Assembly: GCF_041261445.1 (NCBI RefSeq)
Contig: NZ_JBGCCU010000026.1
Span: forward strand, 1-64,000
DNA: 64,000 bases
Origin: Catenulispora sp. EB89
GTDB lineage: Bacteria; Actinomycetota; Actinomycetes; Streptomycetales; Catenulisporaceae
Direction of reading: 5' to 3'
In this document: one piece after another, positions 3,041-49,316 of the stretch
Layout of the letters: each line of letters opens with the position of its first letter
Position numbering within the stretch: position 1 is the stretch's first letter
Notes under the pieces: model-generated
Databases searched by the model: none
The model's input: the letters and a program-made list of their open reading frames with translations, nothing else
What the model was told of the DNA's origin: nothing
Made by a program: the position numbers and the translations under genes

Positions 3041-3253
3041 TCACGACCCCATGGCCTCGACCAGGCTCAGCGGCCGCATGTCCGTCCAGTTCGCCTCGAC
3101 GTGGTCGAGGCAGTCCTGGCGGCCGGCCGCGCCGAAGACGACCGCCCAGCCTTCGGGGACGGCTATGGGCTGCGGCCACAGGGAGTACTGGCCCTCGGCG
3201 TTGGTCAGGACGAGGAATGAGGCCTCTGCGTCGTCGAACGGGTTGCCGCTCAT
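3041..3253 (-). CDS. MbtH-like NRPS adenylation activator
   Basis: A 70-residue MbtH-family protein. These small cytoplasmic proteins bind adenylation domains and are needed for solubility or activity of many of them. The family signature is complete: TNAEGQYSLWP near residues 17-27, PEGW at 33-36, and WTDMRP at 56-61. Length is normal for the family. The ATG at 3253 overlaps the stop of the upstream aminotransferase as ATGA, so the two are translationally coupled. It is the only MbtH gene in the window and presumably serves all three NRPS proteins, about 6 kb away. Confidence 0.95.
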   Translation of the reverse strand: MSGNPFDDAEASFLVLTNAEGQYSLWPQPIAVPEGWAVVFGAAGRQDCLDHVEANWTDMRPLSLVEAMGS

Positions 3254-4635
3254 GTCGTTCTTCCCTTCGGTGGTGACGGGTGGTGGGCCGCCTCGGCCCG
3301 CAGGAACGCGGCGAGGCGGGTGATGCCTTCCCGGAGCTGGTCCGGGGTCAGGTAGCTGGAGGACAGGCGGAGGCGGTCGTGGCCGGCGCCTGGTGGGAAG
3401 AAGGCCGCCATGGGCGTCCAGAGCACGCCGAACTCCCGCGCCGAGCGCTCCAGCGCCGCTTCGTCGGCGGTGAACGGTACCGTGAGGACGGTGAAGAAGC
3501 CGCCGTCCGGCCGGTTCCAGCTCAGGCCGAGTTCGGCGCGGGCCGCGGGCGGGAAGTGCCGTGCGAGCTCGCTTTGGACGGCTGCCAGGTTGGCCCGGTA
3601 GAAGGCCGCCGTCGCGGTGTTGGCGGCGCGCAGACGACAGTCGCAGCGCAGCAGCGCACCGCCGATCACCGCCTGGCTCAGCGACGGGGTGTTGACCGTG
3701 ATCATGCTCTTGATCTTCGCCAGTTCGTCGGCGAGGAGCCCGTGCGAGCCGTCGCGCCGCCGGACCCGCTGGTCGGCGACGACGTAGCCGAGGCGCGCTC
3801 CGGGGAAGCAGGTCTTGCAGCACGAGCCGAGGTAGACGACCGAGCCGTCCGGGTCCAGGGCCTTGAGTGTCGGGCGCGGCTCCTGCTCACCGCCGAAGAA
3901 CCCGTAGGGGTTGTCCTCCAGGATCAGGAAATCCTCGGCCGCCGCCACGTCAAGCAGCCTGCGGCGGGCGGCGGTCGGCATGCTCGCGCCCGACGGGTTG
4001 GCGAAGTCGGGCACCACGTAGCAGGCGCGCACCCGCCGCCCGGAGGCCGCCACGCGGCGGGCGGCGGCGCGCACCGCCTCCGGGTCGAGGCCCTGGCCGC
4101 CCTCGGGCACCGGGACCACCGGGACGTCGAGCAGCCGGGCGGCGCCGGACAGGCCGACGTAACACGGCGAGCTCGCCAGCAGGACGTCGTCCGGCCCCGC
4201 GAACAGGGCCCGCAGCGCCAGGACCATGCCCTCCTGCGCGCCGACCGTGACCACCACGGACTCCGGGTCGACCCGGATCCCCTCGTCGTGCGCCAGCGCC
4301 TCGGCGATCAGGCCGTGGATCTGGCCCTTGGTCCGGCCGTACTGGAATATCAGGGTCCTTATCTCGTCCTCGGTGCGGCCGGCCGCGCGCAGGTGCGCCA
4401 GATACGCCTCGAAGTACTCGGTGACGCTCGCGACGTCGAACATGCCCTCGTACGGCCGGCCGGGCGCGAACGAGACCGCCTCCGGATACCGGGTGGTGAC
4501 CTCGTTCAGGAAGGTCATCGACTCCAGCACCGGATCGGCGACGGAGCCGTGCAGGTCGTCCACGGCGATGGTGCGGGTCTTGGCACGGGTACGGGTGCCG
4601 ATCTCGGCCGAGCCGTTCGTCGCAAGGTCATGCAT
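3250..4635 (-). CDS. hpgT: PLP-dependent aminotransferase, HpgT-type (4-hydroxyphenylglycine formation)
   Basis: A 461-residue fold-type I aminotransferase. The N-terminal LESMTFLNEVTTRYPEAVSFAPGRPYEG resembles HpgT of glycopeptide clusters, which transaminates 4-hydroxybenzoylformate to L-4-hydroxyphenylglycine. PLP contacts are visible: NPSG near 213-216, DNPYG near 241-245, Schiff-base Lys274 in GSCCKTCFPG, and a C-terminal RLRLSSS for the substrate carboxylate. It is about 25 residues longer than I recall for typical HpgT because of an extended N-terminus. The start is supported by GAGG 7 nt upstream of the ATG. It overlaps mbtH (ATGA). A putative LmbU-type operator lies 142 bp upstream. 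General MocR-like or 2-aminoadipate aminotransferases are the alternative, but the cluster context and the dioxygenase at 46.3 kb favour Hpg supply. Confidence 0.85.
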   Translation of the reverse strand: MHDLATNGSAEIGTRTRAKTRTIAVDDLHGSVADPVLESMTFLNEVTTRYPEAVSFAPGRPYEGMFDVASVTEYFEAYLAHLRAAGRTEDEIRTLIFQYGRTKGQIHGLIAEALAHDEGIRVDPESVVVTVGAQEGMVLALRALFAGPDDVLLASSPCYVGLSGAARLLDVPVVPVPEGGQGLDPEAVRAAARRVAASGRRVRACYVVPDFANPSGASMPTAARRRLLDVAAAEDFLILEDNPYGFFGGEQEPRPTLKALDPDGSVVYLGSCCKTCFPGARLGYVVADQRVRRRDGSHGLLADELAKIKSMITVNTPSLSQAVIGGALLRCDCRLRAANTATAAFYRANLAAVQSELARHFPPAARAELGLSWNRPDGGFFTVLTVPFTADEAALERSAREFGVLWTPMAAFFPPGAGHDRLRLSSSYLTPDQLREGITRLAAFLRAEAAHHPSPPKGRTT

Positions 4636-4941
4636 CAGATCGCCTCACGGATTCCTCGCGTCCGGCAAACAGGTCCCGGGACGAAAGCGGATACACCGGC
4701 CACGCCCGACCGGGAGTCACCGTAGGTGCCGCCTTCCGAAGCAGTCAACGAGCACCCGGAGCAGCGTGCGCCCGCCTGTCTCGCCGGCGGGACAAACCAA
4801 TGCGAAGGCACCATCCCCCACAGTCGGGCCGACACGTACCGAACCCGGGCAGACGGCCGCCCCCGGACCTGGGCTTATCAGGATTCTGCGATAAAATCGC
4901 GGCAACCGGCCCGGCCCGGGAACGCCTGTGGAACGGCTCGG
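4636..4941. promoter_or_regulatory. Promoter region of hpgT-mbtH
   Basis: This 306-nt gap holds the promoter of hpgT-mbtH, read leftwards, and the 3' flank of the LmbU-type gene at 4942. It contains the 18-bp palindrome at 4777-4794 (listed separately). A small palindrome GCGAT-AAA-ATCGC at 4888-4900 lies 42 nt past the regulator stop; it is too short to call a terminator with confidence. Confidence 0.6.
4777..4794. promoter_or_regulatory. Putative LmbU-type operator, copy 1 (upstream of hpgT)
   Basis: The sequence TGTCTCGCCGGCGGGACA is an 18-bp palindrome with one mismatched pair. Near-identical copies occur at 46109-46126 and 49247-49264, each upstream of another cluster gene. The centre CGCCGGCG matches the core I recall being reported for the lincomycin regulator LmbU, and two LmbU-family genes lie 150 bp to 1.4 kb away. 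The position is 142 bp upstream of the hpgT start. Confidence 0.75.
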
Positions 4942-5619
4942 TCACAACGCCGCCCCCGACCCGATCGCCACCCCCTGCGGGGCCGGAGCCGGCGGCAGCG
5001 CGGGAACCGGGTCCGGCTCGGCCAGTCCGGCCGCCTCGTCCAGCCCCTGCGTCATCCAGCTGAGCAGGTCCCGGCCCTCCCGTTCGGCCGCCTGCCGCCA
5101 CCGGCTCAGCTGCTCGCCCTCCAGCCGCAACTGCACCATCCTGGCCTCGGAGCCCGGATCGGCGGCCGCGGCCTTGAGCTCCGCACGCAACCGGTTGCGC
5201 GACCAGCCGTGCCGCTCGGCCTTCTCCAGCCAGGCGTCCTGGGCCGGCTCCGGCAGCGGCGCGACCTGTGCGTGGTGTTGGAAGCTCAGCGCGCTGCGCC
5301 GGCGCTCCACGCCGATCTTGCCCGCCACCCAGGCGTAGTTGCGCAGGGTCTGGTAGTCGAGGCTGGTGCTCTCGACAGCCTGCCGGTAGCGGTCGGGGTA
5401 GCGCTGGCGGCCGTAGACGAGCCAGTCCCCCAGCCACCATGTCGAGGACTCGGAGACCCGGCTGATCTGCAGCCCCACCCGGAGCCATTCGTCCACTGTC
5501 AGTCCGGCCCGCAGGGTCAGCGAGGTGCGTCTGGTCACCGTGGACGGGTCCAGCGAAAGCCGTTCGGGATTCGCCGTACGTGCCCCCGCTGCCACGCCCC
5601 TGACGGCGTTGTCCATCAT
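4942..5619 (-). CDS. LmbU-family transcriptional regulator 1
   Basis: A 225-residue protein of the LmbU/NovE/HrmB family of cluster-situated activators. The family core is clear: RRTSLTL followed by WWLGDWLVYGRQRYPDRY near residues 72-89, then SLDYQTLRNYAWVA and RRRSALSFQHHAQVA, then WSRNRLRAELK. A proline-rich tail ends the protein. The start ATG at 5619 has AGGGGAGGG 9 nt upstream; longer open frames upstream are rejected because they overlap the preceding gene. It lies 35 nt downstream of a paralogue in the same direction, so the two likely form one transcript. No TTA codon is present, which argues against direct bldA control. Three palindromes with the CGCCGGCG core in the cluster promoters are its probable targets. 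Confidence 0.88.
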   Translation of the reverse strand: MMDNAVRGVAAGARTANPERLSLDPSTVTRRTSLTLRAGLTVDEWLRVGLQISRVSESSTWWLGDWLVYGRQRYPDRYRQAVESTSLDYQTLRNYAWVAGKIGVERRRSALSFQHHAQVAPLPEPAQDAWLEKAERHGWSRNRLRAELKAAAADPGSEARMVQLRLEGEQLSRWRQAAEREGRDLLSWMTQGLDEAAGLAEPDPVPALPPAPAPQGVAIGSGAAL

Positions 5620-5654
5620 CGAACAGAACCCTCCCCTTGTGACATGAAGCGAAC

Positions 5655-6221
5655 TCAGCGCGCCTCGGACCCGGGGTTCGCCTCGGCGATCCCGTCCAGC
5701 GTCCGGACGATCCACTCCAGCAGGTCCATCTGCGCGGAGTCGGCCGCCGCCTGCCATCGGCCCTGGCGCTCGGCGGCGACGTACATCTGCACGACGGCGC
5801 TCTCCTGCGCGTACGCGTCCTTGCGCTGCGCGGCCCGGATCCGCCGCCGCAACTCGTTGCGTGTCCAACTCTGTTCCTCGGCGCGCGAGAGCCACTCGTC
5901 CTGCTCCCCCGCCGACAGCCCGGCCACCTCCGCGTGGTGCTGGAAGCCGAGCCCCTCCCGGCGCCGCTCCACCGGGACCTTGCGGGCCACCCAGGCGTAG
6001 TTGCGCAGCGTCTGGTAGTCCAGCGACGTCTCAGCGACCGCGCGCTTGTACCGGTTCGGATAGCAGTTCTGCCCGTATATCAGCCAGTCGCCCAGCCACC
6101 AGGCCGATGAATCCGCGATGACGAAGATCTGACGGCCCAGCCGCCGCCACTCGGACCACGCCAGCCCCGGAGGCAGATGCAGACTCGTGCGCCGAGTCAT
6201 CGCCACACCCTGGGAAGCCAC
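5655..6221 (-). CDS. LmbU-family transcriptional regulator 2
   Basis: A 188-residue paralogue of the gene at 4942-5619. The shared core is RRTSLHLPPGL (11-20), SSAWWLGDWLIYG (38-50), SLDYQTLRNYAWVAR (66-80), GFQHHAEVAGL (92-102), EQDEWL (106-111) and a basic WTRNELRRRIRAAQRK. It lacks the long N-terminal and C-terminal extensions of its neighbour. The GTG at 6221 is chosen because GGGAG sits 7 nt upstream; an ATG at 6200 is possible with a poorer site. Tandem paralogues suggest a recent duplication or a hetero-oligomeric pair. It probably controls the peptide cluster through the palindromes described elsewhere. No TTA codon. Confidence 0.88.
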   Translation of the reverse strand: MASQGVAMTRRTSLHLPPGLAWSEWRRLGRQIFVIADSSAWWLGDWLIYGQNCYPNRYKRAVAETSLDYQTLRNYAWVARKVPVERRREGLGFQHHAEVAGLSAGEQDEWLSRAEEQSWTRNELRRRIRAAQRKDAYAQESAVVQMYVAAERQGRWQAAADSAQMDLLEWIVRTLDGIAEANPGSEAR

Positions 6222-7943: not shown

Positions 7944-8663
7944 ATGCCCAAACCGCCGACGCCACCGAGGCCACCGACGCCACCCCCGCCACCCCGCCGG
8001 CCCGTCGGGAGCCGGCTGCTCCGGGCCGGATGGGGCGTGGGCCTGGCCGGACTCGCGGTGGCCGTGACCACGGCCTGCCAGGCCGGCCCGAGCGCCGACG
8101 GCGCCGGCGCTGCCCGACCCGGCGCCGGGGCCGGGACCGCGACCAGCGGCGCCGCCCTCGAGGCGGCGGCCGCCGGCCCTGCGAACCAGGCCAAGCCCGT
8201 GAACCAGGACGCGGCCGCGGGTGCGAACGCCGCTGCGAGCACCGGCTCCGGCAGTACGTCGTCCCAGGCCGCCGACGCCTTCACCGCGTGCATGCGCACG
8301 CACGGGCAGCCGCACTTCCCCGGCATCACCATCACGGCGAACGGCTCGGTCCAGCTCGTTTCCGGCGTCGGCGCCGTGGACCTGCGCTCGGCGGCGTACC
8401 GGGCGGCGCTCGACGCCTGCCGGCACCTGCTGCCGAAGGACACCAACCCGCCGCCCACGCCGGACCCGCCGCCGCGTCCGGTGCCGTCCCCGCCCGCCAG
8501 CCTGTCACCGACCCCGACACCGCCGAGTCCACCGACGCCCTCGACCAGGCCGCCCCTGCCACCCCCGTGGTCGTCGCCGCCACCGCCGAGCGTCCCCACC
8601 TCTCGGCCGGCCCCGCCGAAACCCGCGCCGCCGACGCCCCCCGCGCCGTCGGCACCGGTCTAG
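7944..8663 (+). CDS. Proline-rich lipoprotein-like exported protein
   Basis: A 239-residue protein. The N-terminus is proline-rich (PPTPPRPPTPPPPPRRP), followed by a basic and hydrophobic segment (RLLRAGWGVGLAGLAVAVTTAC) whose Cys could be lipid-modified, although TTAC is a weak lipobox. An Ala/Gly-rich stretch leads to a conserved-looking core, AFTACMRTHGQPHFPGITI, and then SAAYRAALDACRHLLP, with two Cys that may form a disulfide. Exported proteins with a CMRxHG core are common in Streptomyces-like genomes and have no firm function. The C-terminal ~75 residues are almost only Pro, Ser and Thr, as in wall-spanning regions. The ATG at 7944 is chosen for AAGGAG just upstream; a start at 7896 is possible. 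Confidence 0.7.
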   Translation: MPKPPTPPRPPTPPPPPRRPVGSRLLRAGWGVGLAGLAVAVTTACQAGPSADGAGAARPGAGAGTATSGAALEAAAAGPANQAKPVNQDAAAGANAAASTGSGSTSSQAADAFTACMRTHGQPHFPGITITANGSVQLVSGVGAVDLRSAAYRAALDACRHLLPKDTNPPPTPDPPPRPVPSPPASLSPTPTPPSPPTPSTRPPLPPPWSSPPPPSVPTSRPAPPKPAPPTPPAPSAPV

Positions 8664-8703
8664 GCGCGCCGAGCAGGCGGCACCTGCCCCCTCCCCGACC
8701 CAC

Positions 8704-8953: not shown

Positions 8954-20053
<11,100 letters not shown>

Positions 20054-20057
20054 AGCC

Positions 20058-23000
20058 CTACGCTCCCCACTCGTCCTCGAGGTCGTCGATGTCCTCCTGG
20101 GTCAGCGCGACCAGGTCCGGGTCGGCCGACAGGCGGACTGCCGTGCCCGGTGTGCCGGGTGCGCCGGCCGCGCCGGCCTTCCGCGCACTGTTCGCGAGCA
20201 CCCCGAGGAGGCGGAACCAGGTGTCGGCCAGCCGCCGGGCGGCGGGCTCGGGGAGCAGCGCGGTGTCCCAGGCCCAGTAGGCAACCATCCAGGCGCGGTC
20301 CGGGGCGTCGTGCACGACGGTGTCGATCTGCAGGGGGTGCATCAGCATCGCGTCACCGCCCAGGTCGGTGTCGTCGACGCCGCCACTGCCACTGCCACTG
20401 CTGCCGGTATTGCCAGGGCCGTCGGGGCCGTCGGGGCCGTCGGCGTCGTCGGGGCCGTCCGGTGCGACCGCGGTCCAGGCCCGAGCCGCCGCGCCGCCCG
20501 CCGTCGTGGCGAACCGGCCCAGATAGTTGAAGCCGATCGGCGGTTCGGCGAGGTCGGCCAACACTGCTCCGGTCTCCTCGTTGAGGTGGCGCAGCATGCC
20601 GTAGCCGATCCCCCGGTCCGGCACGGCCGCCAGCTGGGCCTGGACCCGTTTCAGCGCCGCGCCGAGGCCCGGTCCGCCGGCCCAGATGTCGGTCCAGTCG
20701 AGCCGGCCGGGATCGAGGCGGATCGGATGGACGCTGGTGAACCAGCCGACGGTGCGGGACAGCTCGACGCCCGCCAGCGCTTCGGCCTCCCGGCCGTGCC
20801 GCTCCAGGTTGATGAGCACCGCGTCCCCTGTGGGTGCCGCGGTCCGGGCTCCGGCCTGGCCGCGACGGCGTTCGTCCAGGACGGCCAGGACCAGGGTGGT
20901 CAGCAGCGCGTCGTTCATGTCGACGCCGAAGACGGCCGGCACGCTGGTCAGCAGCGCGGCGGTGGCCTCGCTGTCGAGGGTGGTCCGCAGTCCGCCCGCG
21001 GGGCCCTTCGGCGCCGCACCCGGGACGCCGTGCAGCAGGGACACGCTCGGCGGCGCCAGGACGCCGAGCCAGGCCGGCAGCTGCGCGACGCGGACCGGAT
21101 CGTGTGCGGCCTCGGACAACGCGACCGACCACCCGCGGAACGACGTGCCGACCGGTTCGAGGACCGGCGGCCGCCCGGCTTCGGCCGCGGACCAGGCCGA
21201 GGCCAGATCGCCGGCCAGGATCCGCCAGGACACCCCGTCCACCGCCAGGTGGTGTCCGACCATCACCAGCCGTCCCAGCCGGTCCGGCCCGGCGTCGAAC
21301 CACACCGCCTGGAACATGATCCCCGCCTCGGGGGACAGCCGGCCGGCGGCCGCCTCGGACGTCTCCCGGAGCAGTGCGCTGACGGACCGCTCGTCCAGCG
21401 CCGCGGTGTCGATCCGGCGCAGCAGGTCCGCGGCGGACACCGCGCCGGGCGGCCGGACGTGCAGCGACCAGGACGTTCCGCCGGTGTCGACGGACTCCAT
21501 CCGCAACGCGCCGTGCTGGTTCAGCAGGGTGTCGAGGATCAGTACCAGGACATCCTCGGTCAGCCCGGCGGGCGTCCACAGCACCATCATCTGGTGCAGC
21601 CGCTCGATCGGGAGCCCGCGCTGCTGGAACAGCCGCATGATCGGGGTGAGCGGGAGCGGGCCGTGGTCGGGGTCGTGGGAGCGGTTGGACAGTGCGGATA
21701 CCTGATCCATACCGGTCTGCGGATCCCCGCCGGTCGTCGCATCCGTGTCAGTCAGGGCCGCGAGGGCGGCGACGGTCTTGTGGACGAACACGTCGCGTGC
21801 GGTGATCGCGATCCCGGCGCTCTGTGCTCGCGCGACCAGTTGGAGCGACATGATGCTGTCGCCGCCGAGGTGGAAGAACCCGTCGTCGATGCCGACCTGC
21901 TCCAGACCGAGCACACCCGCGAACAGCTCCGAAAGGATCTCCTCGCGCACGGTACGCGGCGCCCGGTCGGTGGCGAGCGCCGCGAAGTCCGGGACGGGCA
22001 ACGCGGCCCGATCCACCTTGCCGTTCGCCGTCACCGGCAACGCGTCCAGGACCACGACCGCGGCCGGCACCAGGTAGTCCGGCAGCCTCCCGGCCAGATT
22101 CTCGCGCAGCGCCGCGCCGTCCAGCACGGTCTCCTCGCTCGGCACGACGTAGGCGACCAGACGCTTGTCCGTCGCGCCGTCCTGCCGGGCCACGACCACG
22201 GCCTGTGCCACCCCGGGATGGCCGGACACCACGACCTCGACCTCGCCGGGCTCGACCCGGAAGCCGCGGATCTTCACCTGGTCGTCGACCCGGCCGACGA
22301 ACATCAGCCGGCCCCGCGCGTCCCAGCGCACCACGTCGCCGGTCCGGTACATCCGCGCCCCCGGCTCGAACGGACAGGCCACGAAGCGCGACGCCGTCAG
22401 TCCGGCCCGCTCCAGATAGCCGCGGGCCAGGCCGGTGCCGGCCACGTACAACTCCCCCGGCACGTTCGGCGCCACCAGGCGCAGCGCCTCGTCGAGCACG
22501 AACAGCCGGGCTCCGTTGCGTGGACCGCCGACCGGCAGGACCGTGTCGAACGGCTCGTGCGGCTGCACGGTGAACGTGGTGGGGCACACGGTGACCTCGG
22601 TCGGTCCGTAGATGTTCCAGAACGTGGCCTGCGGGCCCGCCTCCCGAATCTGTGCCGCCCGAATCTGTGCCAGCGCCTCGACCGGCACCACGTCCCCGCC
22701 GCTGAGCACGTGGGACAGACCGCTGAAACACCCCGGGTCCTCCTCGGCCAGCACCCGCAGCAGACCGGCCGCGACGAACGCGGCGGTCAGCCCGGCTCCG
22801 GCGATCAGCTCGCGCATCCGGGCCGCGTCCGGCGCCCCGGGCGGCGCGATCACCAGCGTGCCGCCGACCAGCAGCGTGCCCCACAGCTCGAAGGTCGAGA
22901 CGTCGAACCCGAACGGCGTCTGGAACAGCATCCGCCCGGACCCGACCTCGCCCCAGGAGGCGTCCCGGCCGACCCCGGCGACCGAACTCTGGGTGATCAC

Positions 23001-26000
23001 CACGCCCTTGGGCGTGCCGGTGGACCCGGAGGTGTACATCATGTACGCGGAGCATTCGGGCAGCAGCCGTCCGGACCGCTCGCCGTCCGACAGCGGGTCG
23101 CCCGAGTACATCGCGACAAGCGCGACGGTGGCCGGATCATCGAGCACGACGACTCCCGACGTGTCCGCCGGCAGCTTCTCCACCGACTCGGACGCGGTGA
23201 TCGTCAGCATCGGGGCCGCGTCCCGCATCATGAACTCGACCCGCTCGGCGGGATAGGTGGTGTCCACGGGCACGTACGCGCCGCCCGCCTTCGCCACCGC
23301 CAGCAGTGCCACCACCAGATCCAGCGACCGGGCCGCGGCCACCACGACGCGGTCCTCGACCCGCACGCCCCGGTCGATCAGCAGCCGCGCCAACCGGTTC
23401 GCCCGTGCGTCGAACTCGGCGTAGGAGAGCTCGACGCCCTCGAACACGAGCGCGACGGCGTCCGGGGTCCGGGCCGCCTGGGCTTCGAAGGCCGCGGCGA
23501 TCGTCGCCGGCTCGGGCGGCGCGTCTCCGGTACCGATCTCGGAGACCAGCCGCTCCCGCTCTTGCGGCGACAGCACGTCGACGTCGCTCACTCGCACCGA
23601 AGCATCGGCGACCACCTGTTCCAGAACTCTGATGAAGCGCTGGACCAGGCTCTGCACCGTCGAGGCGTCGAACAGGTCGGTGCTGTACACGAGCAGGCCG
23701 TCCAGCCCGGCGGCGGCGCCCTCGGTGTCGAAGCGCTCCCACAGGTGGAGGGAGAGGTCGAACTTCGCGACGTCCAGTTCGAGCGGTTCGATGCCGACGT
23801 CCAGGCCCGGCAGCCGGAGGTCGGCGTCGGGGGCGTTCTGCAGCGCGAACGACACCTGGAACAGGGGATGGTGAGACAGCGAACGGACCGGCTGCAGGAC
23901 GTCCACCAGGTACTCGAACGGCAGATCCTGGTTGGCGTACGCGGCCAGGTCGGTCTCCCGGACCCGGCCGACGAGCTCGGCGAAGGTGGGGTCACCGCTC
24001 AGATCGGTGCGCAGTACCAGGGTATTGAGGAAGTAGCCGACCAGATCGTCAAGCGCGGCGTCCGTACGGCCGGCGATCGGCGAGCCCAACGGGATGTCCT
24101 CGCCGGCACCCAACCGCGACAACCACACCGCCAACCCGGCCTGGACCACCATGAACAGCGTCGCCCCGGACGAACGAGCCACCTCGACCAGTCCGCGGTG
24201 CACCTGCTCGTCGATCCGGAACGGCAACAACGAGCCCTGATGCGACTCCTCCGCGGGCCGCGGCCGATCGACCGGCAACGCCAACTGCTCCGGCAGGCCC
24301 GCCAACGCCTCGGTCCAGTACGCCAGCTGACGGCCGAACAGGCTCTCGGGATCGTCGCGGCGATCGAGCAGACCACGCTGCCAGAGCGTGAAATCCGCGT
24401 ACTGCACCGGCAGCGGCGACCAGTCCGGAGCTTGTCCGGCTCCGCGTGCGGTGTAAGCGGCGGACAGGTCCCGGGTCAGCACGCCGGCCGACCAGCCGTC
24501 GGAGGCGATGTGGTGCATCACGATCGCCAGCACGTGTTCGGTCGCCGACAGCCGCAACAGCCCCACGCGCCAGGGCACCTCGCGTGCCAGATCGAATCCG
24601 CGGCCGGCGGCCTCGGTCAGCGCCGCGGGCAACTGTGCTTCCGTCACCTCGCGCAGCGTCAACCCGGGCACGGCCCCGGGCGCTTCGGAATCCAGGACGA
24701 TCTGGCGGGCGATGCCGTCGTCCTCGCCGAACACCGTGCGCAGGGCCTCGTGCCGGCCGGCCACATCCGCCACCGCGGCCCGGAACGCCTCGACGTCCAA
24801 CGCGCCACGGAGCCGGACGATGAAGGGGATGTTGTTGACCGGGCTCAAGCCCTCCAACCGGTGCAGGAACCACATCCGCTGCTGGCCGAAGGACAGCGGC
24901 AGCGCCTCGGGCCGGGGCCCGGCGGCCACGGGGGTCCGCGGCGTCACAGAGTCCTGCGACCACGCGGCGAGCCCGGCCACAGTCGGGGTGTCGAACACCG
25001 CCGAGATCGGCACCTCCGTACCGAGCACCGTGCGGATCCGCGCCACCAGCCGCATCGCGGTCAGCGAGTCGCCGCCCAGGCGGAAGAAGCCGTCGTCGAC
25101 GCCGACCCGCTCCAGACCGAGCACCTCGGCGAACAGCCCGGCCAGGATCTCCTCGCGCGCGGTGCGCGGGGCTCGGTCGGTGGTGAGCGCGGCGAAGTCC
25201 GGGGCCGGGAGCGCGGACCGATCCACTTTCCCGTTCGCCGTCACCGGCAACGCGTCCAAGACGATCACCGCGGTCGGCACCAGGTAGTCCGGCAGCCTCC
25301 CGGCCAGGTGCGTACGGACCGCCGCGCCGTCGAGCACGGTGTGCTGGCTCGGTACGACGTAGCCGATCAGGTGCTGGTCCGCCGCACCGTCGCGGCGCGC
25401 CGTGACCACGGCCTGCGCCACATCGGGGTGGCTGGACAAGGCGGCCTCGACCTCGCCGGGCTCGACGCGGAACCCGCGGATCTTGACCTGGTCGTCGCTG
25501 CGGCCGAGGAACACCAGCCGGCCGTCCGCGCTCCAGCGCACCACGTCGCCGGTGCGGTACATGCGGGTCCCGGGCTCGAACGGACACGCCACGAACCGTT
25601 CCGCCGTCAGTCCCGGACGGTCCAAGTAACCGCGGGCCAGGCCGGTGCCGGCCACATAAAGCGCGCCGGACACGTTCGGAGGCACCGGACGCAGAGCGTC
25701 ATCGAGCACGAACACGCGTACGCCGTCACGCGGCCCGCCGATCGGCATCACCGCGCCGTCCCACGCCCCCGGACCTGCCGTGAACGTCGTCGCGCACAAT
25801 GTCACCTCGGTCGGGCCGTACAGATTCCACAGCGCGACATCGGGACACGCCGCCAGCAACTGCGCCACCGTCTGACCCGGCAACACATCGCCGCCGGTCA
25901 GCACATGCGACAACCCCGAGAAGCACCCCGCGTCGGCCTCCACGAGCACCCGCAGCAGCCCGGCCGCCGCGTTCACCGTGTCCAGACCCGACCCGGCCAC

Positions 26001-29000
26001 CAGCTCTCGCAGCCGCACCGCGTCCAGTTCGCCCGGCCCGGCCACCACCACCGCACCGCCGTTCAACAGCGGACCCCACAACTCAAAGGTCGAAGGGTCG
26101 AACCCGAACGGGGTATGGAACAACACCCGGCCGGACCCCATCCCACGCCAACAGCCGTCCAGCGCCAGCCGCACCACAGCACCCTGTGACACCACCACGC
26201 CCTTCGGCGTCCCGGTGGAGCCGGAGGTGTACATCACGTACGCGCCGCTATCGGAGGCGAGGAGCCCGGACCGATGCGGGCGCTCCGCGATGTCGGCGGC
26301 AGTCGCGGGATCGTCGAGCACGACGATCGACAGGGTTCCGGCAGGCAGCTTCCGCACCAGATCAGACGACGTGACAGTCAGCACCGGGGCCGCGTCCCGC
26401 ATCATGAACCCGACGCGCTCGGCGGGATAGCCGGTATCCACGGGCACGTAGACGCCGCCGGCCTTGGCCACCGCCAGCAGCGCCACCACCAGATCCAGCG
26501 ACCGCGCCAACGCCACCACGACCCGGTCCTCGACCCGCACACCCCGCTCGATCAGGTACCGCGCCAGCCGATTCGCTCGGGCGTCCAACTCGGCGTAGGA
26601 AAGCTCAGCGCCCTCGAACACCGCAGCGACCGCATCCGGCGTCCGGGCGACCTGCGCCTCGAAGGCTCCCGCGATCGTCGCCGCCTCAACCGCCGCGCCT
26701 CCGGCACCGACCTCGGCGAGCAACCACTCCCGCTCCCCGGGCAACAACGCGTCGACGTCCCGCACCCGCACCGATGTGTCAGCGGCGACCTGCTCGAAGA
26801 CCCCGACCAGACGCGTCGCCAAGCCCTGCGCCGTCGCGCGGTCGAACAGGTCGTGGCTGAACTCCACGAAGCCGTCGAGCCCGGCGGCGCCCTCCGCGTC
26901 GGAGTGCTCCCAGAGCAGGACCGACAGGTCGAACTTCGCGACGTCCAGTTCGACGAGCTCCACCCGGACGTCGAGGTCGGCGAACCGGACCGCGAAGTCG
27001 GGTGCCGTCTGGAGCGAGAACCCGACCTGGAACAGCGGGTGCCGGGAGAGCGAGCGAGCCGGTTGCAGGACGTCCACGAGGTGTTCGAACGGCAGATCCT
27101 GATGCGCGAAGGCGGCCAGGTCGGTCTCCCGCACCCGGGCCATGAGCTCGGCGAAAGTGGGATCACCGCTGAGATCGGTGCGCAATACCAGGGTATTGAG
27201 GAAGTAACCGACCAGATCGTCCAGGGCGGCATCGGTACGCCCCGCGATCGGCGAGCCCAACGGGATGTCCTCACCCGCACCCAACCGCGACAACCACACC
27301 GCCACCACCGACTGCACCGCCATGAACAGCGTCGCGCCACACCCGTGCGCGATCTCCGCCAATCTCCGGTGCACCAGCGGGTCGATCTTGAAGGGGATCA
27401 ACGAACCCTGACGGCTCGGCTTCGCCGGGCGCGGCCGGTCGGTCGGCAGCGCGAGCTCTTCCGGCACACCGGCGAGAGCTTTCTTCCAGTAGGCGGCCTG
27501 CCGACCGAACAGGCTCTCGGGGTCGTCCTGCCGGCCGAGCAGATCACGCTGCCAGAGCGTGAAGTCCGCGTACTGCACTGGCAGCGGCGACCAGTCCGGA
27601 GCCCGGCCGTGCAGGCGCGCGGCGTAGGCCGCGGACAGGTCCCGGGTCAGCACGTCGACCGACCAGCCGTCGGAGGCGATGTGATGCATCACGATCGCCA
27701 GCACGTGCTCCGTCGGCGACAACCGCAACAGCCCCACACGCCACGGCACCTCGCGAGCCAGATCAAAGCCCTGACCCGCCAAGGCTCGCAGCGCCTCGGG
27801 CCGCTCGGCGTCCGTCACCTCGCGCACGGTCAGGAGCGGGACGGCGCCGGGCGCTCCGACGTCCAGGATCTCCTGCCGGCCCGTGCCGTCCACCTCGACG
27901 AACACCGTGCGCAGCGGCTCGTGGCGGCCGGCCACATCCGTCACCGCCGCCTGCAACGCGGCCACGTCCAGGGCACCGCGCAACCGCAGGACCGACGAGA
28001 GGTTGTCGACCGCGCTCGATCCGATCAGCTGCCGCACGAACCACATCCGCTGCTGCCCGAACGACAACGGCAGTGCCTCCGGCCGCACCGCGGGCAACAG
28101 CCGCGGGCGCGGCACCGCCGCCTCGTCCAGCCGCCCGGCCAGGCCCGCGACCGTCGGGAACTGGAACACCGCCCGGATCGGCAGCTCCGCGCCCAACACC
28201 GACCTGATCCGCGCGACCAGGCGCATCGCCCTGAGGGAATCCCCGCCCAGGGTGAAGAAGCCGTCGTCGATCCCGACCCGCTCCAAGCCGAGCAGATCCG
28301 CGAACAGGCCGCACAGGATCTCCTCGGCCACGGTGCGCGGGGCACGGACGATCGGGCCCGCGGCGAACTCCGGAGCGGGCAGCGCGGCGCGGTCCACCTT
28401 GCCGTTCACCGTCAGCGGCAAGGCGTCGAGCGTCAGCAGCACGGCCGGCACCATGTGCTCGGGCAGCCGGGCCGCGACGAACTCGTGGACCGCGGCCGGG
28501 TCCAACGCCGGGCCGGCCTCGGACCCGGCCGGGACGAGGTACCCGACCAGGCGCTTGCTGTCGCCGCCCGGTTCGTCGGCGCGCGCCAGGACGACGGCCT
28601 GCGCGACGCCGGGGCAGGCCGCCAACACCGCCTCGACCTCGCCGGGCTCGACCCGGAAGCCGCGGATCTTCACCTGGTCGTCGACCCGGCCGACGAACAC
28701 CAACCGGCCGTCCGCGTCCCACCGCACGACATCGCCGGTCCGATACATCCGCGCGCCCGGTATGAACGGACACGCCACGAACCGCTCCGAGGTGAGGCCC
28801 GACCGCTTCAGATAGCCGCGGGCCAGACCGGCACCGGCCACATACAGCTCGCCGGGCACGTTCGGGGCGACCGGACGCAGCGCGTCATCGAGCACGAACA
28901 CGCGTACCCCGTCGCGCGGGGCGCCGATGGGCACCGAGGTCGAGAACCGGTGGTGGTTCCCGGCGTGCAGGGTGAAGGTGGTGGCGCACAGCGTCGTCTC

Positions 29001-32000
29001 GGTCGGACCGTACAGGTTCCACACGGCGACCTCGGGGCACGCCCGCTGAATCCGGGCCACCGCCTCGGGCAGCGCCGCCTCCCCGCCCATCAGCACGTGG
29101 GAGAGCCCCGCGAAGCAGCCGGGATCCTCCTCCGCCCACACCCGCAGCAGGCCGGTGGTCATGTGCACGACGGTCACCCCGGCGCGCGCGACCAGTTCCC
29201 GCAGCCGTACCGGGTCCAGCTCGTCGGGCGGCGCCACGACGACGGTCCCGCCGGCCAACAGGGTTCCCCACACCTCGAACGTCGAGGGATCGAATCCGAA
29301 CGCCGTGTGCAGCAGCACCCGGCCCGAGCCGATGCCGCCCCAGCAGGAGTCCAACGCCAGGGCGGCCACAGCGCCCTGCGTCACCAGCACGCCCTTGGGC
29401 GTACCGGTCGAGCCCGACGTGTACATCGCGTAGGCGCCGGACTCGGGGGCGAGACAGCCGGCGCGCTCGGCGTCGGCGATCGGCTTGTCGTCGAGGTCTG
29501 CCACCGCGCGGAGGACGACCGGATCGTCCATCTGCACGAGACCGTCGAGACCGGTCGGCAGCCGGTCCACGAGCGCGCTCGCCGTGAGCACAGCCACGGG
29601 TGCCGAGTCCTCCAAGGTGTAGGCGATCCGCTCGGCAGGGTAGGCGACGTCCACCGGCACGTACACGCCGCCGGCCTTCACCACCGCGAGCAGCGCCACC
29701 ACCAGGTCGGCCGACCGGGTCAGCGCCACCGCCACCCGGTCGTCGACCCGGACGCCCCGCGCGATCAGGTAGCGGGCCCAGCGGTTCGCCGCCGCGTCGA
29801 GCTCGGCGTAGGTCAGCGTTCCGTCTTCGTGTCCTGAAACGATGGCCGGCGCGCCGGGCTGCTCGGCGGCGCGCGCCGCGAACGCCTCCGCGATCGTCAC
29901 CGGCACGACCGCCGCGTTCCCCGTACCGGTCTGCGCGATCAGCCGCTCCCGCTCTCCGGGCAGCAGCACGTCCACGTCACCGATCCGCACGGCGGCGTCG
30001 GCGGCGATCTGTGCCAGGACTCCGGTCAGCCGCGCTGTCAGGTCCTCGATCGTGTGCTGGTCGAACAGGTCGAGGCTGTACGCCACCAGGCCGTCCAGGC
30101 CGGACGCGCCGCCTCCGTCGTCGGGACGCTCCTGCAACAGGACGGACATGTCGAACTTGGAGATCCCCAGATCGAAGTGCTCGAACTCGGCGTCCACACC
30201 CGGCAGTTCGAAGCCCGACTCGACGGCGTTCTGGAGGGCGAACGCGACTTGGAACAGGGGGTGTCGGGACAGCGAGCGGGCCGGTTGCAGGACGTCCACG
30301 AGGTGTTCGAACGGCAGATCCTGGTGGGCGTAGGCGGCGAGGTCCGTCTCCCGCACGCGACCCACGAGCTCGGTGAAGGAGGGATCGCCGCTCAGGTCGG
30401 TGCGCAGTACCAGGGTATTGAGGAAGTAGCCGACCAGATCGTCCAGCGCGGCATCGGTACGCCCGGCGATCGGCGTGCCCAGCGGGATGTCCTCGCCACC
30501 GCCCAACCTCGACAACAACAACGCCAAAGCGGCCTGCACCACCATGAACATCGTCGCGCCACAGCCCCGAGCGACGTTCACCAGCTCCTGATGGAGTCGC
30601 GCGTCGATCTCGAAGTGCACCGTCGAGCCCCGATGCGTCAGTTCCGCGGGCCGCGGCCGGTCCACCGGAAGCTCCAGTTGCTCCGGCAACCCGGCCAGCG
30701 CGTCCTTCCAGAACGCCAGCTGACGGCCGGCCAAGCTCTCAGGGTCCTGCCGGCGGTCCGCCAACAGCTCGTGCTGCCACAGCGTGAAGTCGGCGTACTG
30801 CACCGGCAGCGGCGACCAGTCGGGGCCTTGCCCGCGCAGGCGGGCGGCGTACGCGGTGGAGAGGTCTCGGGCCAGGACGTTCATCGACCAGCCGTCGGCC
30901 GCGATGTGGTGCACCACGATCGCCAGCACGTGCTCTGCCGGCGACAGGCTCAGCAACGCGACCCGCCACGGCACCTCGCGCGCCAGATCAAAACCCTGAC
31001 CCGTCACCTCGGTCAGCGCCGTGGACCAGTCCGCTTCGTCTGCCTTGTCTGCCTCGTTCGCCTCGCTCACCTGGCGGACCACCAGCTGCGGGACGGCGGC
31101 CGGACTCCCGGCGTCCCAGATCTCTTGGCGGGACACGCCGTCGGCAGCGACGGTCTGCGCGCTGTCCGCGATGACCGTGCGCAGCGCTTCGTGCCGACCG
31201 GCGACATCGGCCATTGCCGCCTGCAACACCGCAGCATCCACCGGACCACCGGTCAGCCGCAGCACCAACGGAATGTTGTCGACCGCGCTGGGACCCTCCA
31301 GCCGGTGCATGAACCACATCCGCTGCTGACCGAACGACAGCGGCACCGCCTCCGGCCGGACAGCCGGAACCACCGAGGCACGCGTAAGCGCCGACTCGTC
31401 CAGCCGTCCGGCCAGGCCAGCGACCGTCGGGAACTGGAACACCGCGCGGATCGGCAGCTCCGTCCCCAGCGCCGATCTGATGCGCGCGACCAGGCGGGTC
31501 GCGGTCAGCGAGTCCCCGCCGAGGGTGAAGAACCCGTCGTCGATCCCGACCCGCTCCACACCGAGCAGATCAGCGAACAGACCGCACAGAATCTCCTCCC
31601 GCGCGGTACGCGGGGCGCGGCCGGTGGCGAGCGCCGCGAAGTCCGGGGCGGGCAGCGCGGCCCGATCGACCTTCCCGTTCGCCGTCAGCGGCAGCGCGTC
31701 GAGAACCACGGCCGCGGCCGGCACCATATAGTCCGGCAGCTTGTCGGCCACGGATTTCAGCACCGCCGCGCCATCCAGCGCGGAGTCGTCGGCGGGGACC
31801 AGGTAGGCGACCAGGCGCTTGTCCGATCCCTCATCGCGCCGAGCAACCACCACGGCTTGGGCCACTCCGGACTGCGCGGCCAAGACGGCCTCGATCTCGC
31901 CCGGCTCGACCCGGAAGCCGCGGATCTTGACCTGGTCGTCAGCACGACCGACGAACACCAAGCAGCCGTCCGCGTCCCAGCGCACGACATCGCCGGTCCG

Positions 32001-34553
32001 GTACATCCGCACACCCGGCAGGAACGGACACGCCACGAACCGCTCGGAGGTGAGACCGGCACGATCCAGGTAGCCGCGGGCCAGGCCGGACCCGGCGACG
32101 TACAACTCCCCCGGCACGTTCGGCGCCACCGGACGCAATGTTTCGTCGAGCACGAACACCCGGGTCCCGTCACGCGGCCCGCCCAACGGCAGCACCTGCG
32201 GTATCTCCGAACCCGGCTCGACCACAAGGGCCGTCGCGCAGAGCGTCACCTCGGTCGGGCCGTAGAGATGCCGCACCTCTATCGCAGGACACGCCGTCCG
32301 CACCCGGGCCACCGCGTCCGACGACACCACGTCGCCGCCGGTCAGCACATGCGACAACCCCGAGAAGCAGCCGGGGTCCTCCTCCGCCAACACCCGCAAC
32401 AGGCCTGCGGTGACGTGCACCGCGTCCAGGTCCGTCTCAGCGACCAACGTCCGCAGCCGCGCCGCGTCCACGTCGCCCGCAGGCGCGACCACCACCGTGC
32501 CGCCGTTCAACAACGGCACCCACAGCTCGAACGACGAGGCGTCGAACCCGAACGGGGCGTGGAACAACACCCGGCCCGAGCCGATCTCGCCCCAACACCC
32601 GTCAAGGCCCAGCGCGGCCACAGCACCCTGCGAAGCCAGCACGCCCTTCGGCGTTCCGGTGGACCCGGAGGTGTACATCACGTACGCGCCGCATTCCGGC
32701 GCGAGACGCCCACGGCGTTCGCCGTCGGTGACCGGACCCGATCCCCCTCGGCCGATCAGGGCGGCCGTCGCGGGATCGTCGAGCACGATGATCCCCGTGG
32801 CTCCCACCGGCACCTTCTCCGCGAGGTCAGCCGACGTCACCACCAACGCCGGGGCCGCGTCATCGAGGATGAAGGCGATCCGCTCAGCGGGATAGCCGGT
32901 GTCCACCGGCACGAACACCGCGCCGGCCTTCGCCGCCGCCAGCAGAGCGACCACCAGATCGAGCGACCGCGTCAGCGCCACCCCGACCCGGTCCTCAACC
33001 CGCACGCCCCGCTCAAGCAGATGCCGCGCCAGCCGATTCGCGCGCGCGTCCAACTCCGCGAAAGTGATCTCAGTACCCTCATACACTGCCGCGACGGCCT
33101 CCGGCGTCCGCGCGACCTGGGCCTGGAAGGCGCCGGCGATCGTGGCCGGCGCAGCGGCCGCACCTCCCACGCCGACTTCGCCGAGCAGCCACTCCCGCTC
33201 CCCCGGCAGGAGCACGTCGACGTCCCGCACCGGCACCGACGCGTCGTCGGCGATCTGCGCGAAGACCCGCACCAGACGCGCCACCAAGCCCTGCGCCGTC
33301 GCGGGGGCGAACGCGTCGGGCCGATACGTCAGGACCAACAGCAGTTCGGCCCCGGGGACGACGGCCAGGCTCAGCGGGTAGTGGCTGACGTTGTGCCCGC
33401 CGAGCATGGACACCGTCACCTCACCCATCCGGCGGGAGCCGTCCGGGTCGTCCGGGTAGTTCTCGAAGATCAGCAGCGTGTCGAACTCGGCGCCCGGACC
33501 GCCGGCCCGCCTGATCTCGGGCAGGCCCACGTACTGATGGGGGATCAGCGCGGCCTGCCGGTCCTGCAGCTCGGCGAGCACGTCGACGACCGGCCGCGCG
33601 GGCGAGAGGCGCACCCGGACCGGAACCGTGGCGATGAACAGGCCGACCATGCGCTCGACGCCGGGCAGCTCGGCGGGACGCCCCGCCGCCGTCGCCCCGA
33701 ACACCACGTCGTCGCGGCCCGAGAGCCGGCCCAGGAGCAGCGCCCAGGCCCCCTGGACCATCGTGTTCACCGTCAGGCCCCGGGCGCGCGCCGCCTCCGT
33801 CAGCGCCGCGGTGAGCTCGCGGCTCACGGCGACGCGGAGTTCCCGCGGTTCGGCCGACGGTCCCGGCTCGCCGCCCGGCCCGGCACCGGACGGTTCCGCG
33901 ACCCCGGTGGCCGTGCGCGAGAAGAGGCTCGGCTCGTCAGCACCGGCCAGTTCCGCCCGCCACGCCGCGCGGGCCGCCTCGGTGTCCTGCTCACCGAGCC
34001 AGGCCACGTAGTCCCGGTACGGCACCACCGGCGGCAGCACCGCGGCGTCGCCGCCGGCCGCGTAGACCGCCGAGACCTCCTTGTGCAGCAAGGGCAGCGA
34101 CCAGCCGTCCATCAGAAGGTGGTGGTTGGTCACCACCAGCCGGTGATCGTCCGGACCGAAACGCAGCAACAGCAAGCGCAACAGCGGAGGAACCGCGAGG
34201 TCGAACCGGCGTTCCCGTTCCTCCGACGCCAGCTGCTCCGCCTTCGCCAGCGCTTCCGTCTCAGGAAGCTGCGACAGGTCGACCTGTCGCCACGGCAGTG
34301 CCACCCGGCCGGCGATGACCTGCACCGGCTCGTCCCGGCCGGCCGGCCGGCGGAAGCACGCGCGCAGGGCCGAATGCCGGGCGACCACCGTTTCCCAGGC
34401 CGTTTTGAGCACCGCCGCGTCGAGCGGGCCCCGCATGGTCAGACGCACCTGGACCACGTAGACGTCCGACGCCTGGTCGTCGAACCGGGAGTGGAACCAC
34501 AACCCCTGCTGCAACGGGGTCAGCGGCCAGACGTCCTCTACTCGCTGAGCCAC
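20058..34553 (-). CDS. NRPS 2: modules 4-7 with C-terminal epimerase
   Basis: A 4,831-residue synthetase, C-A-T-C-A-T-C-A-T-C-A-T-E. Module ends fall near residues 1054, 2144, 3200 and 4264; the epimerase spans ~4290-4780 with HHLAVDG. The first C domain ([24 protein letters not shown]) is of the type that takes a D-residue donor. Pocket residues read DAFHLGLLCK (module 4), DPFHLGLLCK (5), DPFNLGLLCK (6) and DVFFLGIVCK (7). The first matches the known Hpg code DIFHLGLLCK in nine positions; 5 and 6 are close variants; 7 is not assigned. The T domain before E has LGGDSI, typical for carriers that serve epimerases. The GTG at 34553 overlaps the end of NRPS 1 and has GGACGGAG 7 nt upstream; the 53-residue upstream extension of the frame is not domain-like. 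Confidence 0.94.
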
Positions 34554-37500
34554 TGGACCGCTCCGTCCTGGGGGTCTACGTCCTCGAACATGTCCTCGAT
34601 CTCGTCGATCTGCGCCTGGTCGAGCCGGACCAGCGCCAGGTCCGACGGGGTGTGGCCGCCGGCCCCCGGCCGAGCCGCGCACGCGGCCAGGCCCCGCACC
34701 ATCGCCGCCCATTCCTGGAGCAGTTCCCTGACGTCCGCCTCGTCGAAGAGCTCTGACACCCAGGCCAGCTGGAGGACCAGCTCCGGCCGGCCGTGGTCGG
34801 CGTCCCGGACCACCCCGCCGGTCTCCAGCGCGTGCACGGCCCGCATCTCAGGGGGCGCGTCCCCGCCCATCGCCCGCGGCCCGGCGAGCCGCCAGTCCGG
34901 CGGGGAGCCGTCGCCCGGGGATCCGCCGCCCGCCGTTTCGTCACCCGACGCGCCGGCGAAGCGGCCCAGGTAGTTGAAGCCGATCTGCGCCGTAGGCAGC
35001 TCCGCAAGGACGGCGGCGGCCCCTTCGTCGAGGTAGCGCAGCCGGCCGTAGCTCAGCTCGTCTCCCGGTACCGCACGCAGCTGTTCCTTGACCCGCATGA
35101 CCAGATCTCCGGCCTCCTGCTCGCCGGCGAGTACTCGCGCCGGATCGGCGGGCCCCGGATCGAGGAGCACCGGGTGCATGCTGGTGAACCAGCCCACGGT
35201 CCGCGACAGGTCCATCCCGTCTGAGAACTCCTGCCGGCCGTGGCCCTCCACGTCCACCAGGACAGAGCCGGGCCGCTCGCCGCGCCGGATCCGCCGCCGC
35301 GCCAGGGCCGCCGTGAGCCCGGCGAGCAGCACGTCGTCCACGCCGACGTGGAACGTCGCGGGCACCGTGGTCAGCACGGCGGACGTCACGTCCGGATCCA
35401 CCGTGACGCTGAGCCGGCACAGACCGGCGTGGGTGTCCCGGTCGGCGAGGCGACGCCGCCCGACCGGTGGTTCGCCGGCGGCCGCACGGAGCACGCGGCT
35501 CCAGGCGTCCAGCGCGGTAAGCCGGGCCGGCTCGTCAGGCTGCTCCGCCAAGGCCAGGGCGTACCGGCGGAACGACGTCGGCACCGGGTCCAGAGCCGGC
35601 GTCTCAAAAGACTGGATCGCCTGCCAGACCGTCGCCAGATCCGCGAGCAGAATCCGCCAGGAGACCCCGTCGGTCGCCAGGTGGTGAACGACCAAGAGCA
35701 GTCGGCCGGGGCGGCCCGCTCCCCGGTCGAACCACAGGGCCTGGAGCATGACGCCCGCGCGCGGATCGAGTCGGCCCGACGCCGCCCGGGCGTGACCGTC
35801 GATGAACTCGTCGAGCTCGTCGTCGGCCGGCTCCTGCGCGTCGACGCGGCGCACCCAGGACTCCACAGCCTTCGAGGCAGGCTCAGGCGTGGGGATATCG
35901 AGGCGCGGCAATCCGTCCGCTTCTGCTCCCACCAGGCGCATCCGCAGTGCGCCGTGGTGGGCGACCAGCGCTTGGACGGCCCGGGCGAGCCGGTCAAGGT
36001 CCAGGTCGGCCGGCGCGGTCACGACCATCCACTGGGAGAAGCCTGCGCCGAGGACGCTCGGGCCGCCTCGTTCCCGCAGCGCGTGCATGATCGGAGTGAG
36101 CGGGAGCGGTCCGTGGTCGGGGTCGTGGCGGCGAGCGGGTTGTGCGGCTGTTTCGTCGGCAAGGGCGGCGAGGGCGGCGACGGTCTTGTGGACGAACACG
36201 TCGCGTGCGGTGATCGCGATCCCAGCGCTGTGCGCCCGGGCGACCAGCTGCAGCGACATGATGCTGTCGCCGCCGAGGTGGAAGAACCCGTCGTCGATGC
36301 CGACGTGGTCCAGGCCGAGCACCTCGGCGAACAGCCCGGACAGGATCTCCTCGCGCGCGGTGCGCGGCGCCCGGTCGGTGGCCAGCGCGGCGAAGTCCGG
36401 CGCGGGCAGCGCGGCCCGATCCACCTTGCCGTTCGCCGTCACCGGCAAGGCGTCCAGGACGATCACCGCGGTCGGCACCAAGTAGTCCGGCAGTATTGCG
36501 GCCAGATAGTCGCGCACCGCCGCACCCTCAAACGCAGTGTCCTGATCCGCGACGATGTAGCCGAACAGACGCTTGTCCAGGCCACCATCGTGGCGGGCCA
36601 TGACCACGGCCTGCGCCACGCCGGGATGGCTCGACAGCGCGGCCTCGACCTCGGCCGGCTCCACGCGGAATCCACGGATCTTGACCTGGTCGTCGCTGCG
36701 GCCGAGGAACACCAATCGGCCGTCCGCATCCCAGCGGACCAGGTCCCCGGTCCGGTACATCCGCTCGCCGGCAAGGAACGGACACGCCACGAACCGCTCG
36801 GCGGTCAGCCCTGAACGGTCCAGATAGCCGCGAGCCAGACCGGTGCCGGCGACATACAACTCCCCCGGCACGTTCGGCGCCACCGGACGCAAGGTGTCGT
36901 CGAGCACGAATACCCGAACGCCGTCACGCGGGGCGCCGATCGGCATGACCGCACCGCCCCAAACCCCCGGGCCCGCCGTGAACGTCGTCGCACACAACGT
37001 CACCTCAGTCGGGCCGTAAAGATTCCACAGCGCGACATCAGGACACGCCGCCAGCAACCGTGCGACCGTCTGTCCTGGAAGCACATCACCGCCGGTCAGC
37101 ACATGCGACAACCCCGAGAAGCAGGCGGCGTCGGCTTCCACCAACACCCGCAGCAGCCCGGCCGCCGCGTTCACCACGGTCAACCCCGACCCGCTGATCA
37201 GCTCCCGCAACCGCGGCGCGTCCAGCTCTCCCGCCGGCGCCACCACCACCGCACCGCCGTTCAACAGCGGGCCCCACAGCTCAAAGGTCGACGGGTCGAA
37301 CCCGAACGGCGTATGGAACAACACCCGGCCCGATCCCATCCCGTGCCAACACCCGTCCAACGCCAGGCCCGCCACAGCACCCTGCGACACCACGACGCCC
37401 TTCGGCGTACCTGTGGACCCGGAGGTGTACATGACGTACGCGCCCGCTTCGGGTGCGAGACGCCCGCCACGCTCGCCGTCCGCGATCGGACCCGACGCAC

Positions 37501-45835: not shown

Positions 45836-47392
<1,557 letters not shown>

Positions 47393-49038: not shown

Positions 49039-49246
49039 ACATCACCTTCTCGCGACCTGAGCCATTGAAGTCATAGTGCTGGGATCTTTACCGCCGACTT
49101 GTCGCCGCACCATACTTCGCGGCCGCGGCGAAAAGCCATGAAAGGGCCTGTCGGCGCGGGTGTCCGCGCTCTGTGTTCTCCGGGGTGAATTCCGTCGTTC
49201 GCGCAGCCCACAGCGCGCGAACCCGCTTCGGGAGGCTGTGCGGCGC

Positions 49247-49264
49247 TGTCCCGCCGGCGAGACA
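49247..49264. promoter_or_regulatory. Putative LmbU-type operator, copy 3 (halogenase)
   Basis: The sequence TGTCCCGCCGGCGAGACA lies 209 bp upstream of the halogenase start. Read on the other strand it equals copy 1 (4777-4794) exactly. It is the third of three intergenic copies in the cluster. Confidence 0.78.
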
Positions 49265-49316
49265 GGGTTCTGATTCACTCGGCCGGGTGCGGTTCCCGGG
49301 CCGTCGGCGCGGCGCT

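Follow-up and report, generated by a model that had tools for sequence, protein, structure and literature searches.

Two genes for LmbU-family regulators, here called A and B, lie next to each other within a chlorinated, hydroxyphenylglycine-type NRPS cluster of Catenulispora sp. EB89, in a stretch of 64,000 nucleotides that was analysed as a whole and is called the window below. The predicted operator of three promoters in this cluster is an 18-bp palindrome, YGTCYCGCCGGCGRGACR, and extends beyond the published core CGCCGGCG. B and A probably constitute a two-gene operon of non-redundant LmbU activators that share a regulon of three such boxes. The most useful outcome of this study is the 18-bp LmbU box, together with the clean test that it offers.

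The LmbU pair and its cluster

The genes discussed here, with the gap between A and B, are as follows.

3041..3253, minus strand: MbtH-like protein of 70 aa, so named on visual inspection of the sequence; kept in Catenulispora rubra
3250..4635, minus strand: class I/II aminotransferase, presumed from its neighbours to be the 4-hydroxyphenylglycine transaminase
4942..5619, minus strand: LmbU-family regulator A, 225 aa, with Gly100 at the LmbU R101 position and no Cys
5620..5654, minus strand: B-A gap of 35 nt, which holds the ribosome-site-like stretch GGGGAGGG
5655..6221, minus strand: LmbU-family regulator B, 188 aa, GTG start, with Arg80 at the LmbU R101 position
8954..20053, minus strand: NRPS with three adenylation and four condensation domains
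20058..34712, minus strand: NRPS with four adenylation and five condensation domains
34538..45835, minus strand: NRPS with three adenylation and four condensation domains, the first gene behind box 2
46340..47392, plus strand: glyoxalase/dioxygenase-fold protein, presumed 4-hydroxymandelate synthase HmaS
47539..49038, minus strand: FAD-dependent halogenase

A reading made from the sequence alone had described two paralogues of 188 and 225 residues, 35 nt apart in the same direction. Both genes are indeed found intact on the minus strand, with no internal stop in either, and both pass the curated 125-bit cut-off of the NCBIfam model NF038070 (LmbU_fam_TF, 171 positions): A scores 215.1 bits over model positions 1-171, and B scores 225.4 bits over positions 1-169. 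The two proteins have 52% identity across 179 aligned positions and share 18 of the 23 residues of the helix-turn-helix (equivalent to LmbU 80-102), whose core, YQTLRNYAWV, is found at residues 89-98 of A and 69-78 of B. Both genes have a third-position GC content of 0.91. Because the gap is too short for a separate promoter, the two genes are taken to form an operon, of which B is presumably the first gene. The GTG start assigned to B is supported by a GGGAG ribosome-site-like stretch 5' of it and by comparison with C. rubra, the nearest named relative of the 11.9-Mb host genome, which reveals an 8-nt frame-breaking indel between the GTG and the next upstream start candidate.

The pair is not an accident of assembly, since C. 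rubra (locus L005) keeps A, B and the neighbouring genes, there with a gap of 55 nt between A and B. Judged from the two Catenulispora genomes, both A and B are under purifying selection, with dN/dS values of 0.115 and 0.147, respectively; among the neighbours, MbtH has 0.118, the aminotransferase 0.235 and the adjoining beta-propeller gene 0.396. With both frames intact and dN/dS well below 1, a pseudogene was ruled out for either. The sequence-only reading had named dispensability of one gene as the case that would speak against it; the sequence gives no hint of this, as both are under purifying selection.

It had also held that known clusters usually carry a single LmbU homologue. This is correct only in part. 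In a second order, 10 of 298 genomes have LmbU over the cut-off and none of them has a paired LmbU. In the sample of the host order, 28 of 197 genomes have LmbU over the cut-off (a count that includes G549, whose broken LmbU is missing from the sequence set), and 9 of the 28 have two LmbU genes within 15 kb. Three of these pairs are same-direction tandem pairs, found only in the present lineage, and six are divergent pairs in Streptomyces, an assignment taken from named matches. LmbU pairs recur across this order; those that are adjacent and in tandem represent a variant specific to one lineage.

The functions of HmaS and of the hydroxyphenylglycine aminotransferase with MbtH are presumed from family and gene company. 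The last NRPS, at 8954-20053 (minus strand), carries its fourth condensation domain at the end, and no thioesterase was listed for it by Pfam at E 1e-5. A sensor kinase and a response regulator (49446-51514, minus strand) adjoin the halogenase gene and are kept in C. rubra; VanS-O and VanR-O are among their best NCBIfam matches, with scores below the cut-off.

An 18-bp predicted operator

Comparison of intergenic DNA with C. rubra revealed a conserved block that surrounds the published LmbU core. The first paper on an LmbU operator reportedly appeared in J. Bacteriol. in 2017, and literature text searches, limited in extent, found no longer form of the box. A 2025 review gives CGCCGGCG as the LmbU operator (PMC12945683). 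As evidence, the bare core was rejected: it occurs 28 times in the window where 19 occurrences are expected, and 1 of 100 shuffles reaches that number, which is too weak, so an extended box is needed. The exact 18-mer GTCCCGCCGGCGAGACAG has three copies in the window: one lies between A and the aminotransferase gene, one separates the NRPS gene from the divergent HmaS-like gene, and one precedes the halogenase gene.

4776..4795 (16-bp core 4778-4793): LmbU box 1, upstream of the aminotransferase gene, whose start is 143 nt away, and 149 nt from the A stop; hetero-half-site
46110..46127: LmbU box 2, between a divergent pair, 275 nt from the NRPS start and 215 nt from the HmaS-like gene; hetero-half-site
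49246..49265 (core 49248-49263): LmbU box 3, upstream of the halogenase gene, whose start is 210 nt away; hetero-half-site

The CGCCGGCG operator predicted at target promoters is present inside all three boxes, and all three recur upstream of the same genes in C. rubra. The expectation of three operator-bearing promoters, voiced before this analysis, is borne out, as the cluster holds exactly three promoter-located boxes. At the promoter of the B-A operon itself no box was found within 3 mismatches, and simple box-mediated autoregulation is therefore not expected.

The pattern searched across genomes was the 16-bp symmetric core GTCNCGCCGGCGNGAC, and the form YGTCYCGCCGGCGRGACR follows from Y/R at its free position and a pyrimidine at the next base outward. 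All 56 half-sites (28 distinct sites) have a pyrimidine at this outer base, which the search pattern leaves unfixed; the count omits boxes in LmbU coding sequence and a site in a frame resembling enoyl-CoA hydratase. The free flank position is Y/R in 65 of 66 LmbU-linked sites, versus 10 of 28 in LmbU-negative genomes, where the count spans the 28 listed of 45 sites. On these counts, the predicted 18-bp box separates LmbU-linked from unlinked sites by sequence alone.

The core also follows LmbU genes through the order sample, with 62 sites in 18 of the 28 LmbU-positive genomes versus 45 sites in 37 of the 169 others, 12 of which have weak matches below the LmbU cut-off (p 7e-9). In LmbU genomes that consist of a single contig, 31 of 37 core sites lie no more than 75 kb from an LmbU gene, where 0.91 would be expected; G504 enters this count twice, with the mirrored copies at its two chromosome ends (27 of 33 if a single copy is taken), and the binomial p of 2e-44 overstates the independence of sites. 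The box is not universal, since 10 of the 28 LmbU-positive genomes lack an exact copy. Three LmbU-linked sites fall inside LmbU coding sequence (L001 1722-1737, L040 1722-1737 and L049 1774-1789); the codons for Ser-Arg-Arg-Arg-Asp may spell the box by coincidence there, or these may be intragenic control sites. In G504, a whole LmbU cluster with four boxes is present twice as mirror images (C1 40601-95777 and 8981756-9036934), as expected for terminal inverted repeats.

In the 11.9-Mb host genome the 16-bp core occurs seven times, and the backward control does not occur. Three copies are in the window, two are at the LmbU gene of contig C16, and two are elsewhere: one on contig C1, inside the frame that resembles enoyl-CoA hydratase by eye and possibly a coincidence, and one on contig C24, which lacks the Y/R flanks. 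The host has two further LmbU genes, on contigs C16 and C44. The one on C16 is accompanied by two T/T boxes (L094 9645 and 10258), of which one precedes the gene and the other falls within it.

Origin of the pair and roles of A and B

A tree was built from 76 distinct LmbU-family rows, i.e. 104 matches minus identical cores. A groups with A of C. rubra and the downstream LmbU of Actinospica acidithermotolerans (starred support 97/97), and B groups with B of C. rubra, the upstream LmbU of A. acidithermotolerans and five Streptomyces proteins (starred support 98/90). The placement of A and B in different LmbU subclades indicates that the pair is old. Thus, the pair would predate the split of these genera or would have been put together from two subclades; an older duplication is another possible origin. 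B is probably the older member, because three Streptomyces loci with a single B-clade LmbU (L012, L013 and L024; S. aculeolatus, S. griseoviridis and S. pseudovenezuelae) show an LmbU gene directly followed by a box and, after 3-6 kb, an aminotransferase gene, without any A in between. A recent tandem duplication kept for dosage, which would make A and B redundant, would fit their adjacency, shared direction and 52% identity. However, it is improbable given that they belong to different starred clades and that each keeps different conserved residues under purifying selection. When the six tandem-pair proteins, a group picked after seeing the tree, were forced into one clade, the topology was weakly rejected (p-AU 0.04), whereas forcing A with the whole B clade was not rejected (p 0.12). 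The pair is not a recent copy; it is real and conserved and belongs to a known family, and its arrangement is a novel variant.

The frame at 8203-8916 (plus strand) encodes at its end, near 8809-8916, a CPxCG...TVxxVL motif. Matches to this motif occur in exactly 4 of the 197 order genomes, all with a B-clade LmbU, and in Streptomyces loci the motif ends a longer Cys-rich protein beside LmbU (the loci tied to this observation are L010, L012, L013, L019 and L024). The product is possibly a small zinc protein that accompanies LmbU of the B type.

On the alignment, LmbU residue n corresponds to residue n-1 of A and n-21 of B, a numbering placed by LmbU C63 and R101, which are 38 apart, the same spacing as in homologues with a Cys at the A62 column. 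By this numbering, A has the full LmbU length at its N-terminus and B is without the first 21 residues. In LmbU, the changes R101A and R101K led to loss of binding to lmbAp (PMC6510168). The R101 position is Arg80 in B, Gly100 in A and Asn in the A protein of Actinospica; among the 76 family members it is R in 65, G in 10 and N in 1, so Arg does not define the family. Gly100 was dropped as proof that A cannot bind DNA, as the only LmbU of G246 is of the Gly type and the single exact box of that genome lies just past its gene; the core of this protein is that of S. griseoviridis L013. At position 118, A has Gln and 74 of the 76 family members have Glu. A contains no Cys and B only Cys53, neither of them with an equivalent of LmbU C12, and no TTA codon was found in A or B.

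AlphaFold models of B and A have pLDDT values of 88 and 85, respectively. Residues 1-17 of A fall below 50, so that its N-terminal extension is modelled as disordered, and its Pro/Ala-rich C-terminal tail differs by 18 residues in length from that of A in C. rubra. The sequence-only reading had seen in the N- and C-terminal extensions a sign of divided roles or a hetero-complex; this argument does not hold for tails that are of low confidence and variable between species. The difference in the recognition helix (Gly100 in A, Arg80 in B) is more telling. For the helix-turn-helix domain of the B model, the best solved matches are ParB/Noc, with Z 10.1 over 100 residues; the ten best matches are all ParB/Noc (Z 8.3-10.1), values that are middling for helical models. 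The C-terminal domain of B is ribbon-helix-helix-like (Z about 6). Sequence homology with ParB was rejected (hhalign probability 2.8%, not significant), and the likeness concerns the predicted fold only. No solved relative found by sequence was convincing (best E 0.035). Pfam gave no match to the ParBc (CTPase) domain in A or B at E up to 1, and just two short strands precede the DNA-binding domain in the models of both.

Starting from the genes, boxes, conservation and subclades, which can be read from the DNA, we infer operon, dimerisation, binding, activation and targets as follows. Each protein would combine a ParB/Noc-like DNA-binding domain with a C-terminal domain that resembles a ribbon-helix-helix and is expected to dimerise, and one dimer would occupy one palindromic box. 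From boxes placed 143-275 bp upstream, the supply of hydroxyphenylglycine (by the aminotransferase and MbtH and by HmaS), the NRPS line and the halogenase would be switched on jointly. A would be an LmbU of a second subclade, which Catenulispora and Actinospica retain in the place between B and the box.

The two proteins might also act on the boxes together, as an A/B heterodimer in which one subunit reads the C-type half-site (GTCCC), the other reads the T-type half-site (GTCTC), and both are needed. Each of the three window boxes combines one half-site of either type, and the orthologous boxes of C. rubra keep this asymmetry and its orientation at 3 of 3 promoters. Such mixed sites make up 14 of 28 in clusters with two LmbU genes versus 8 of 41 in others (p 0.0098), where sites on other contigs of G407, G478, G554 and G771 are counted with the cluster, linked by gene content only in G407. 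Single LmbUs of the Gly type, in the B clade (5 loci) and in Actinoalloteichus, adjoin C/C boxes. However, once the two Catenulispora genomes are left out, the enrichment falls to 8 of 22 versus 8 of 41 (p 0.22); since it depends on Catenulispora, the hetero-half-sites were rejected as proof of a heterodimer. Moreover, the tandem pair of Actinospica has a C/C box, all three boxes of G852 are mixed although it has a single LmbU, and Arg-type LmbUs adjoin both C/C and T/T boxes. A hetero-complex of A and B, as proposed before this analysis, may exist, with circumstantial support from the boxes in place of the terminal extensions, and a heterodimer that is needed at each box seems doubtful. The wider proposal, that LmbU regulators read an 18-bp parS-like palindrome as dimers joined by ribbon-helix-helix domains and that an obligate two-subclade A/B heterodimer is matched here to orientation-conserved hetero-half-site boxes, would be tentative and is on the whole unlikely.

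Alternatively, B alone may recognise the boxes, and A may be a non-binding partner, or one of altered specificity, that tunes B, for example through inactive mixed dimers. A and the A protein of Actinospica have Gly and Asn where Ala or Lys abolished the binding of LmbU to lmbAp (PMC6510168), their B partners retain Arg, and Gln118 replaces a nearly constant Glu. Against this, 10 of the 76 family members have Gly, including the sole LmbU of G246 with its adjoining box, and the remainder of the recognition helix of A is conserved; a tuning role is rather unlikely. Divided targets, with one protein serving this cluster and the other controlling genes outside it, could be suspected from the LmbU genes on C16 and C44 and the boxes at C16. 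But only two exact 16-bp matches lie outside the cluster and the C16 locus, namely the match on C1, in the enoyl-CoA hydratase-like frame, and the match on C24, without Y/R flanks, and such a division is very improbable. The reading of B and A as non-redundant activators with a shared regulon is preferred.

Significance and comparison with known systems

LmbU regulators act in lincomycin, actinomycin, himastatin and glycopeptide clusters, and the published motif is just an 8-bp palindrome; a 10-bp version has 176 matches in the genome of S. lincolnensis, and its authors suspect that the flanks matter (PMC10763038). As a marker of LmbU clusters, the 18-bp box is far more precise than the short published motif. 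It predicts which cluster promoters are under LmbU control, supplies probes for EMSA, and opens the matter of paired LmbU proteins in a cluster to direct testing.

A and B resemble LmbU of the lincomycin cluster of Streptomyces lincolnensis in family, helix-turn-helix, location within a biosynthetic cluster and the CGCCGGCG core at predicted target promoters. Unlike that system, there are two genes here instead of one, A is without R101, neither protein has an equivalent of C12 (LmbU is a Cys12-mediated homodimer, a trait of that protein and not of the family model), and TTA codons are absent. The lincomycin operator is defined over 8 bp, the present boxes over 18 bp. LmbU has an N-terminal auto-inhibitory domain (residues 1-57); A is of full length in this region and B is 21 residues shorter.

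LmbU-like regulators of peptide antibiotic clusters, i.e. AcnO/AcmO (actinomycin), HmtD (himastatin), HrmB (hormaomycin) and the LmbU of GP6738, offer a further parallel. Positive roles were reported for AcnO (PMC6521150), for HmtD (as cited in PMC6510168) and for LmbU and StrR together in the type V glycopeptide GP6738 (PMC7567792). The passages on these regulators describe one LmbU gene each and give no operator.

Compared with ParB/Noc, A and B are without the CTPase domain and have another C-terminal domain, and the profile comparison is not significant. The predicted fold of the DNA-binding domain is alike (Z 10.1 with Noc). The parS site has TGTYYC...GRRACA half-sites, and those of the LmbU box are the same, around a centre that is 2 bp longer.
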